This document shows positions 50,608-56,432 of a stretch of DNA of 64,000 nt, piece by piece. Position 1 is the first letter of the stretch, and each line of letters opens with the position of its first letter. The stretch lies in the NCBI RefSeq assembly GCF_000633935.1, contig NZ_KK214998.1:1412411-1476410 (forward strand), written 5' to 3'. The translations under genes and the position numbers were made by a program. The notes under the pieces were generated by a model. That model did not search any database. It was given only the letters and a program-made list of their open reading frames with translations, and was not told where the DNA came from. Origin of the DNA: Ectothiorhodospira haloalkaliphila ATCC 51935 (GTDB lineage Bacteria > Pseudomonadota > Gammaproteobacteria > Ectothiorhodospirales > Ectothiorhodospiraceae).

Positions 50608-52263
50608 ATGGGTTTCATGGGTGTGTATGCCAATCGACTGGCCCGGTTATGGCGCCAGTTCTCTGTGGTGGGCCTGCTGGTGGGCACGCTGTTCTTCGCC
50701 TTCTCGCTCACCCCCAGTCTGGTGCCCCGTCCCTTTCTGGTTCAGGGGCTGATCTCCGGTTTGTCCTTCACCGCCGGTTACGCGGTGGGTTTCTTTGGTC
50801 GCTGGCTGTGGTCCTACGTGGAACTGCCGGTGCCCGGACCGCGGGTGGATTGGGTCATCAAGATCCTGGCCACGGTGATCTGCTCGGTGGTGGCGGTGAC
50901 TTTTCTATGGCAGGCGGGGGAGTGGCAGAACGCCCTGCGGGCGCTCATGGAGATGGAAGAGGCCGGTGGCGTGCAGCCGGTGAGCGTGGGCCTGATGACC
51001 CTGGTGGTGTTCGTGATCCTGCTCACGCTGGCCAGGTTGTTCAAGCACACCTTCCGCTTCCTGGCGCTATGGCTGGGGCGCTATATCCCCCAGCACGTCT
51101 CCAATGTGGTGGGTGTCCTGGTGGCTGCCGCCCTGTTCTGGTCGGTCATTGATGGGGTGATCTTCTCGCTGGCCCTGCGCGCTGCCGACAACTCCTATCA
51201 GCAGGTGGATGCCCTGATCGAGGATGAGTTGACCCGGCCCACGGATCCCCTCAAGGCAGGCAGCGTGGATTCCTATGTGGACTGGCGCGACCTGGGGCGG
51301 CAGGGTCGCAATTTCGTTTCATCCGGGCCCAGGGCGTCGGATCTGAGCGAGTTTTTTGGCGAGAACACCATGGAGCCCATTCGCATCTACGTGGGCCTGA
51401 ACGCCGCAGAGACGGCAGAGGAGCGGGCCGACCTGGCCCTGAGGGAGCTCAAGCGGGTCAACGCCTTCGAGCGTTCCGTCCTTTTGCTGGTGACGCCCAC
51501 GGGGACCGGGTGGGTGGATCCCGCTGCGCTGAATCCGATGGAGTATCTGCACCGGGGGGATATTGCCACGGTCACGGCCCAGTATTCCTACCTGCCCAGC
51601 GCCCTGTCACTGATGGTGGAAGGTGAATACGGGGCCGAGATGGCCCGCGCCCTGTTCGAGAAGGTGTATGGGCACTGGTCGAGCCTGCCCGCCGACGAAC
51701 GCCCCCGGCTTTACCTTCACGGCCTGAGCCTGGGAGCCCTCAATTCGGATCGTTCCTTCGACATCTACGATGTGATCCAGGATCCTTTTCATGGCGCCCT
51801 GTGGAGTGGTCCCCCATTTCGCAGCGAGACCTGGCGCAAGGCCACCCGGGAGCGTGACCCGGGCACGTCGGCCTGGCTGCCCAGCTTCCGCGATGGTGAC
51901 GTGGTGCGATTCATGAACCAGCATCAGGGGCTTGATCGTTACGACGGCGAGTGGGGGGCGTTCCGCATCGCCTACCTGCAGCATGCCAGTGACCCCATCA
52001 CCTTCTTCGATCCGGAGAGCTTTTATCGGGAACCCGAATGGATAAGGGAACCCCGTGGACCGGATGTGTCGCCGGATCTGCGCTGGTACCCCATCGTGAC
52101 CATGCTGCAACTGGCAGCGGACATGGCGGCCGGGTCAACGCCTGCGGGCTTTGGTCACACCTTCGCGGCAAACGATTACATCGACGCCTGGCGCGTGCTG
52201 ACCGAACCGGAGGGGTGGAGTGAATCGGATATCGAGCGTTTGCGTGCCCTGTTCAACGACTGA
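50608..52263 (+). CDS. Membrane alpha/beta-hydrolase family protein (PF10081-like)
   Basis: A 551-residue protein with about four N-terminal membrane helices (FSVVGLLVGTLFFAFSLTPSLVP, GYAVGFFGRWLW and two more up to residue 195) and a cytoplasmic or periplasmic hydrolase domain with a nucleophile elbow GLSLGALNSD (Gly-x-Ser-x-Gly). It matches the DUF/alpha-beta-hydrolase family with a conserved N-terminal membrane region. Activity and substrate are unknown. Confidence 0.8.
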   Translation: MGFMGVYANRLARLWRQFSVVGLLVGTLFFAFSLTPSLVPRPFLVQGLISGLSFTAGYAVGFFGRWLWSYVELPVPGPRVDWVIKILATVICSVVAVTFLWQAGEWQNALRALMEMEEAGGVQPVSVGLMTLVVFVILLTLARLFKHTFRFLALWLGRYIPQHVSNVVGVLVAAALFWSVIDGVIFSLALRAADNSYQQVDALIEDELTRPTDPLKAGSVDSYVDWRDLGRQGRNFVSSGPRASDLSEFFGENTMEPIRIYVGLNAAETAEERADLALRELKRVNAFERSVLLLVTPTGTGWVDPAALNPMEYLHRGDIATVTAQYSYLPSALSLMVEGEYGAEMARALFEKVYGHWSSLPADERPRLYLHGLSLGALNSDRSFDIYDVIQDPFHGALWSGPPFRSETWRKATRERDPGTSAWLPSFRDGDVVRFMNQHQGLDRYDGEWGAFRIAYLQHASDPITFFDPESFYREPEWIREPRGPDVSPDLRWYPIVTMLQLAADMAAGSTPAGFGHTFAANDYIDAWRVLTEPEGWSESDIERLRALFND

Positions 52264-52339
52264 AAATCGACTCTGGCAGGTCGCCATGTTGACGTGGCTC
52301 AAGCTTTTGGGAGTCTTGCGGGAGAGTTGGGCTTGTCGG

Positions 52340-52383
52340 TGTATCGGTGCCTTGACATCCCCCTGTGTCCTCGTAGACTTACA
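52340..52383 (+). promoter_or_regulatory. Tandem PpsR/CrtJ operator over the antenna promoter
   Basis: Two TGT-N12-ACA sites, 52340-52357 and 52366-52383, are separated by exactly 8 bp. This is the consensus and spacing for cooperative binding of the photosynthesis repressor PpsR/CrtJ. The first site ends in the -35 hexamer TTGACA (52352-52357); the second covers a -10-like TAGACT (52374-52379, 16-base spacer). Repression of the antenna genes under high oxygen is inferred. Confidence 0.8.
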
Positions 52384-52463
52384 CCCCAACGCCAGCCCGG
52401 TGGCGCAGCCTAAACGGGTTTGGTGAGACAAAGTTTGAGTAGTTGTGGCGAGTGCAATGACCT

Positions 52464-52481
52464 GGATCTCGCACGAGATCC
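52464..52481 (+). promoter_or_regulatory. Perfect 18-bp hairpin in the antenna mRNA leader
   Basis: GGATCTCG and CGAGATCC flank CA, 24 bases before the alpha-subunit ATG. Placed in the 5' leader it could protect the message or act as an operator. The rest of the 242-base gap is the promoter region and leader. Confidence 0.55.
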
Positions 52482-52505
52482 GGAAAAACCAAGAGGACTA
52501 ATGAA

Positions 52506-52718
52506 ATGAGCGAATACAGACCGAGCAAGCCGAGCAACCCCAGAGACGACTGGAAGCTGTGGCTGGTGGTGAACCCCGGCACTTGGCTGATGCCCATCCT
52601 GATGGCCGTCCTGGTCGTGGCCCTGGTCGTTCACGCTTTCGTGTACAGCAACGACAACTACAACCCGCTGACCTTTGATGCGTCCGCGGAAGTTGCTGCT
52701 GAAGAAGCTGCTGAGTAA
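52506..52718 (+). CDS. pucA: Light-harvesting antenna alpha subunit (LH2 type)
   Basis: A 70-residue antenna apoprotein. The membrane helix (LMPILMAVLVVALVVHAFVYS) carries the bacteriochlorophyll-ligand His43. The segment DWKLWLVVNPGTW resembles LH2 alpha subunits (VVNP) rather than LH1 alpha (FDPRR), so a peripheral antenna is preferred. The tail is acidic and Ala/Glu-rich. The ribosome site AGAGGA precedes the ATG. It is encoded before the beta subunit, the reverse of most puf/puc operons. Confidence 0.85.
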   Translation: MSEYRPSKPSNPRDDWKLWLVVNPGTWLMPILMAVLVVALVVHAFVYSNDNYNPLTFDASAEVAAEEAAE

Positions 52719-52768
52719 GCGATTACACCGCTCACTCAAGCCATCGACCTAATCAGAGGATAATCATC

Positions 52769-52909
52769 ATGTATGACAACAGCATCTCCGGTCTGACCGA
52801 AGAACAGGCCAAGGAATTCCACGAGCAGTTCAAGACCACCTTCACCGTGTTCATGGTGCTGGCTGCTGCTGCTCACTTCCTGGTGTTCCTGTGGAGACCC
52901 TTCTACTAA
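52769..52909 (+). CDS. pucB: Light-harvesting antenna beta subunit
   Basis: A 46-residue antenna apoprotein. SGLTEEQAKEFHEQF is the classical beta-subunit N-terminus (His18), and the membrane helix ends in AAAAHFLVFLWRPFY with the bacteriochlorophyll ligand His36. AGAGGA precedes the ATG. No reaction-centre gene (pufL, M or C) follows; a large stem-loop does. Confidence 0.88.
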   Translation: MYDNSISGLTEEQAKEFHEQFKTTFTVFMVLAAAAHFLVFLWRPFY

Positions 52910-52920
52910 GGTCTGCCATG

Positions 52921-53032
52921 CCGCTTCTGTGAAGTAGCGGTGCGGGTAGAGGAGTGGCTGATTCGCCCATCAACGATCGACTGTGACTTTTGCAGAGGCC
53001 AGTGGATCGGCGGCGAATCAGGCTCCTCTACC
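52921..53032 (+). terminator. Stem-loops downstream of the antenna operon
   Basis: A small stem (CCGCT...AGCGG, 52921-52940) is followed by a long one: GGTAGAGGAG...CTGATTCGCC (from 52945) pairs with GGCGAATCAG...CTCCTCTACC (to 53032) with a small bulge, a stem of about 20 bp with a 42-base loop. Such structures end or stabilise antenna mRNAs in purple bacteria. The rest of the 268-base gap (to 53177) shows nothing else. Confidence 0.6.
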
Positions 53033-53177
53033 GTTCCCAGAGGACTTGAAGCCGAGTTTGACTAAATTGCTCGGGTATTGCAACCCCCTCTCGGCGAAAA
53101 ATGACCAACACGCCTCCCCGGCGTGAGTTCTGACCCCCGCCCCCCCTTAAGTATTTACGCAGAATGTACCCGGTGCC

Positions 53178-56432
<3,255 letters not shown>

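Follow-up and report, generated by a model that had tools for sequence, protein, structure and literature searches.

The closest described counterpart of the locus analyzed here is the bchC promoter of R. capsulatus, where, according to the excerpted account, one CrtJ palindrome spans -47 to -30 and covers the -35 element and the other spans -21 to -4 and covers the -10 (PMC5362033). For Rubrivivax gelatinosus, excerpts of the corresponding study describe PpsR binding that is redox-dependent at pucB, with a spacing of 9 bp, and redox-independent at crtI, with a spacing of 8 bp (PMC4452267). Among the partly listed results of a literature search by title or start of abstract, we found no report of PpsR sites in Ectothiorhodospira.

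The DNA studied here is a stretch of 64,000 nucleotides from Ectothiorhodospira haloalkaliphila ATCC 51935 (the window; C4:1412411-1476410 of this genome, G000). Its 44 bp at 52340-52383 very probably combine a sigma-70-type promoter with a PpsR/CrtJ double operator, through which PpsR would silence an antenna operon until it is released or remodelled, probably with an AerR/PpaA-like partner. All elements lie on the forward strand. The upper TGT-N12-ACA site occupies 52340-52357 (TGTATCGGTGCCTTGACA), with a 3' half-site that falls within the -35 hexamer TTGACA at 52352-52357; the lower TGT-N12-ACA site, at 52366-52383 (TGTCCTCGTAGACTTACA), lies over the -10 hexamer TAGACT at 52374-52379, 16 bp from the -35. 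Both sites are exact and the gap between them is 8 bp, so that the initial annotation, which had placed two exact sites with this gap over both hexamers, is borne out in each of these particulars. Single TGT-N12-ACA sites occur at chance level in the 64-kb window (10 found, 8.63 expected), whereas none of 400 dinucleotide-shuffled versions of the window contained an exact pair at spacing 8, and 9 of the 400 contained one when all spacings of 0-20 were allowed. The promoter scan of 52264-53177 returned TTGACA-N16-TAGACT as the sole sigma-70-like promoter, matching 10 of 12 consensus positions (mean in shuffles, 0.3). Palindromes 7-9 bp apart and their overlap with the -35 and -10 of a photosynthesis promoter, here a predicted one, define a double operator, and both properties are found here.

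From the position of the -10, transcription is expected to start at 52386-52388, and a start at 52387 would place the upper site at -47 to -30 and the lower one at -21 to -4. With this arrangement, PpsR would bind both palindromes and cover the -35 and -10, polymerase would be excluded, and the downstream antenna operon would be silenced. Transcription would then be allowed once PpsR is released or remodelled, probably together with the AerR/PpaA-like B12-binding protein whose gene adjoins ppsR. The binding of PpsR, the direction of its effect and the signal are inferred, and repression would presumably respond to oxygen or light. The geometry had been taken to give cooperative, redox-sensitive repression. 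The sites have the same register as those of R. capsulatus bchC, which were footprinted. The redox claim does not hold in general, as binding at 8 bp in Rubrivivax is redox-independent in the excerpts cited above; an 8-bp spacing is no guarantee of redox sensitivity. In addition, the Ectothiorhodospiraceae are described, in the excerpted genomic survey, as lacking the aerobic cyclase, with bacteriochlorophyll dependent on anoxia (PMC8877833), and an oxygen signal may therefore be partly redundant.

Downstream, the alpha gene (52506-52718, forward, 70 aa) scores 52.2 bits with PF00556 and 58.4 bits with NF040861, and the beta gene that follows it (52769-52909, forward, 46 aa) scores 41.7 bits with PF00556 and 76.1 bits with NF040862, the PF00556 cut-off being 23 bits. 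Both are thus light-harvesting complex (LHC) genes, as had been proposed when the operon was called an antenna operon. After the beta gene, a long interrupted inverted repeat at 52948-53029 was seen by eye; the terminator and repeat scans did not report it.

The initial annotation also predicted that this bacterium encodes PpsR. In the 3.45-Mb genome, one protein exceeds the cut-off of the TIGR02040 profile (C3:229968-231293; 537.9 bits against 275.4, covering 442 of 442 positions), the six other matches being weak, at 48.9 bits or less. The protein contains PAS domains and a Fis-type helix-turn-helix (HTH), and it resembles the solved PpsR 4hh2 with an E-value of 1.1e-48. A cysteine in the HTH region (LCIEAALE) is invariant in all seven aligned PpsR proteins. 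The sole cysteine of the aligned 4hh2 chain, which we take to be the second redox cysteine of this Rhodobacter protein, does not align with the nearest cysteine of the PpsR described here but is offset by two residues, which counts against the PpsR reading.

The ppsR gene adjoins the gene for the chlorophyll synthase BchG and a gene for a protein with B12-binding domains. The best NCBIfam match of the latter, CarH, reaches 33.6 bits, far under its cut-off of 400; we regard the protein as AerR/PpaA-like from its position, which fits the order chlG-ppsR-ppaA-bchFNB reported for Ectothiorhodospira in the excerpted survey (PMC8877833). No BLUF domain was found in the genome, making an AppA-type antirepressor partner unlikely. 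The B12-binding neighbor is relevant to the direction of control, since PpsR could bind here and activate, or act both ways together with AerR, and according to the excerpted account AerR with CrtJ extends the binding at R. capsulatus bchC under photosynthetic growth (PMC5362033). However, the two sites lie over the positions where polymerase is presumed to make contact, which is the layout of a repressor, and we therefore consider activation or dual action unlikely and repression the preferred reading.

Similar double operators recur in the genome. With at most one mismatch, the motif is found at 6 places, as against 2 for the reversed control, and all six are at photosynthesis genes. Besides the window copy, four precede alpha-first antenna operons (C3:28681; C1:211061; C2:339041, minus strand; C4:299360, minus strand), so that antenna loci account for five of the six strong copies; these are dispersed, the copies being spread over all four contigs. 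The remaining one precedes bchC (C3:302942, minus strand), whose product scores 412.9 bits with the BchC profile (cut-off 291.25). At two mismatches the genome holds 36 places against 30 in the control, and the weaker pair of this class at C3:305062, between a crtE-like gene and crtD, rests on its location because the count is near that of the control. Within 100 kb around the photosynthesis genes, pairs with at most two mismatches at spacings of 5, 6, 7, 8, 9, 10, and 11 bp number 0, 6, 1, 3, 2, 2, and 0; only two of them lie outside picked reading frames, at bchC and in the crtE-like/crtD gap, both with 8 bp. The gene beyond the crtE-like gene is CrtD by family search, the crtE-like gene itself is a prenyl diphosphate synthase that scores under every cut-off shown, and the gene at the crtF position had no NCBIfam match at 1e-20.

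The genome contains 18 LHC genes forming nine operons, and the operator precedes five of the six alpha-first ones. The sixth (C2:252929, minus strand) retains TTGACC-N16-TAGACT with 5 of 12 half-site bases. Three copies of pufBA, with equal LHC scores, are located at C4:571645, C1:43948, and C3:297607, and neither the promoter core nor the operator was found upstream of them. The expectation that the motif would also precede other photosynthesis genes thus holds for bchC and weakly for crtD, but not for any of the three pufBA copies. Single extended sites (TGTNANNNNNNNNTNACA) were considered as operators in their own right and rejected. They occur at 17 places in the genome, against 6 for the reversed control; five of the 17 are within double operators (C2:339041, C3:28681, C3:28707, C3:302968, and C4:299360), and we treat the single sites as chance occurrences since the other 12 have no recognized photosynthesis gene among the neighboring reading-frame starts, as judged without family search.

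When analyzing related genomes, we found PpsR in 9 of 58, all nine belonging to the genus of the window, of which ten genomes were searched. With at most one mismatch, the operator pattern occurs at 56 places in the nine PpsR-bearing genomes, as against 6 for the control, and at 80 places in the other 49, where the control also gives 80. In an order-wide search of 47 genomes, LHC genes were found only in G000-G009, the genomes of the genus, and in G013, a phototrophic member of the family. We read the sequences upstream of 64 antenna operons from these genomes, 43 of them non-puf and 21 puf-type, labels that were assigned by gene order and score. The exact core TTGACA-N16-TAGACT (12 of 12 positions) is present in 38 of the 43 non-puf operons, namely 37 of the 41 from PpsR-bearing species and the single one from G013, but not the single one from G006, and the core reaches at most 8 of 12 positions in all 21 puf-type operons. 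A search among named genomes for the core with the lower site gave five places, in records of Roseburia, Lachnospiraceae, Nitrospinae, Desulfobacteraceae, and Akkermansia; as such a search may omit near relatives and returned no record of the genus, it carries no information on the genus itself.

Half-site conservation was assessed in those 37 operons of the genus whose core matches at all 12 positions, a set that leaves aside the five coreless non-puf operons and G013. All 12 half-site bases are present in 11 of these operons and at least 11 in 33; nine of the bases are independent of the core, as the upper-site ACA belongs to the -35. Among the 37, the three bases of the upper-site TGT are retained 27, 35, and 31 times, those of the lower-site TGT 27, 37, and 35 times, and those of the lower-site ACA 37, 37, and 36 times, counts that are not independent because the species share ancestry. 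Anchored on the core, the module carries 1.22 bits per column across the 37 operons, compared to 0.18 and 0.23 for the flanks; among 21 representatives less than 70% alike, the values are 1.20 as against 0.16 and 0.17. Seven of the eight spacer columns (20-26) are low, at 0.1-0.6 bits, and the outer TGT and ACA are kept. Shortly 3' of the lower site, a CC (52385-52386; module columns 46-47) is invariant in 37 of 37 exact-core antenna promoters of the genus and absent from the bchC version of the window's genome.

Part of this conservation could follow if the promoter were simply a conserved one, copied together with the antenna genes, in which the TGT and ACA triplets hitch-hike. The antenna operons are paralogs, and the hexamers are invariant in all 37, the rows having been chosen for an exact core. 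However, divergence has left little information in the flanks and across most of the 8-bp spacer, while the triplets have stayed; bchC, which is not a paralog, has the same layout; and the one ortholog pair that keeps TAGACT and five of six -35 bases retains 5 of 12 half-site bases, so that promoter and triplets can part. We consider such hitch-hiking extremely improbable, and conservation of the triplets as PpsR half-sites remains our preferred interpretation.

The bchC version of the operator occurs in all nine PpsR-bearing genomes. The location at bchC was checked directly in G000; for G007 it was checked by gene likeness, and elsewhere it was deduced from likeness and the distance of 5.3-5.5 kb to puf. 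This copy also bears on the question of whether another regulator, reading the central inverted repeat TTGACA-N8-TGTCAA, could be responsible and PpsR not be the main reader. The inner halves are the best kept part of the module (TTGACA in 37 of 37, by row selection, and GTCA at 37, 35, 37, and 34 of 37), but the outer TGT and ACA, which lie outside the hexamers and the central repeat, are kept as well, as PpsR requires, and at bchC the central repeat is weaker (GGTCAC).

Two phototrophs without detected PpsR provide a further comparison. In G006, a phototrophic congener assembled in one contig and 99% complete, PpsR was not found by two profiles, and bchF lies 161 bp from bchG, a gap too small to hold ppsR or ppaA; in the window's genome, ppsR and the B12-binding gene are in this place. 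No module is present in G006 at its alpha-first antenna operon or at bchC. The absence of both regulators, PpsR and PpaA, has been described for Ectothiorhodosinus mongolicus in the excerpted survey (PMC8877833). In G013, the two profiles likewise did not find PpsR, the best matches (30.7 and 20.2 bits) falling off the HTH, and there is no module at bchC. Before the first gene of its ten-gene antenna cluster, however, G013 keeps the module (L145, upstream of C4:1389007), with 11 of 12 half-site bases, a 12/12 core and the CC. Counting, for each of these two species, the antenna promoter (alpha-first or cluster) and that of bchC, one of the four promoters has the module and three lack it.

Of all results, the antenna module of G013 weighs most against a reading by PpsR only, and as it is kept without detected PpsR it speaks against PpsR as the sole reader. 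It may reflect a recent loss of PpsR, a ppsR gene in a gap of this 98% complete assembly, or another reader. With the two module-free promoters of G006, the outer triplets and the weaker central repeat of bchC pointing the other way, we judge it very unlikely that another regulator is the main reader, and we favor PpsR. The combined observations support PpsR control of dispersed antenna operons in purple sulfur bacteria of the Ectothiorhodospira type, a group that offers natural tests of its own in the form of PpsR-less species and operator-free antenna copies.

The four non-puf operons of PpsR-bearing species that lack the operator are two ortholog pairs. In one, the sixth alpha-first operon mentioned above (G000 C2:252929) and its ortholog in G007 (C1:3451672, minus strand), the upstream regions align along their length; this is the pair that keeps most of the core. 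In the other (G001 C25:180912; G008 C2:143489), the members are alike in promoter and leader. Non-puf operons of the genus number 42, and the G000/G007 pair differs from all the others in its proteins, as beta ends in WRPWF and alpha has HSFVFT; in the other 40, beta ends in WRPFY and alpha is HAFVYS-like. Hydrogen bonds from alpha and beta residues to the acetyl groups of bacteriochlorophyll tune absorption, as set out in the excerpted source (PMC9618040), and since the altered residues are near the pigment, a spectral difference is possible for this pair, which as a single case probably represents one event.

The leaders of the antenna operons contain a further element. In the window, a hairpin with a 9-bp stem and a GCAC loop occupies 52462-52483 (forward), 22 nt upstream of the start codon, and is followed by a Shine-Dalgarno-like AAGAGG at 52491-52496, the last five bases of which (AGAGG) are invariant in 29 aligned leaders. 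The hairpin was spotted by eye first and tested afterwards. In the 62 nt upstream of the start codon, a strong hairpin that ends 22-28 nt from the ATG is found in 25 of 30 distinct operator-bearing leaders, compared to a mean of 0.9 and a maximum of 4 in shuffles, and it is present in 0 of 5 operator-free leaders. In the alpha-first antenna operons of the genus the stems measure 6-11 bp and covary. Across the 29 leaders, 79.8% of the hairpin alignment cells are paired, against 73.1% in shuffles, and 16 are altered on both sides, against 5.8; the alignment omits the hairpin-less leader G001 L095 (identical in G008 L134), which the 30-leader count includes, and the pairing and covariation counts therefore lean towards the hairpin. 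Its register outscores slides of 1-3 columns in pairing and covariation score, two of the five measures are no higher than in shuffles, and the RNAalifold energy of the loosely aligned set is weak (-0.24). The folds of five operator-bearing leaders are not outstanding individually (z from -2.1 to 0.8), so that the case rests on position and covariation, and Rfam gave no match in 51900-53300.

Tentatively, and with considerable doubt, these observations can be combined into a two-tier antenna set, in which most copies stand behind the PpsR operator and a few have shed it, such that PpsR would change the kind of antenna besides its amount, with the hairpin of the operator-bearing operons perhaps a second layer of control. 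If the operator-free copies were made while the others are repressed, this would be a simple case of one repressor setting light-harvesting composition.

Compared to the systems described to date, the window operator resembles that of R. capsulatus bchC in having a pair of TGT-N12-ACA palindromes with an 8-bp gap, one covering the -35 and the other the -10, in the same register, a layout that the bchC promoter of the window's own genome has as well (excerpted account, PMC5362033). In contrast to R. capsulatus, where the sites were footprinted, the module is known here from sequence, belongs to a gammaproteobacterial antenna operon, and stands before five dispersed antenna operons. Like in Rubrivivax gelatinosus pucB, a double PpsR site covers the -35 as well as the -10 element of an antenna promoter, although the excerpted spacing there is 9 bp and not 8 bp (PMC4452267). 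Congregibacter litoralis KT71 is also a gammaproteobacterium, and 12 of its 15 predicted PpsR sites are tandem, 7 or 8 nt apart; these were counted in one photosynthesis gene stretch, going by the part of the report drawn on here (PMC2654016), whereas in E. haloalkaliphila the copies are dispersed, with five of six strong ones at antenna loci. Judged by its motif and spacing, the window operator thus appears to be a PpsR double operator with the same register as the R. capsulatus bchC promoter, and switches of this kind are already known. Less expected are its spread over many antenna copies, the few copies that are operator-free, and the covarying leader hairpin.
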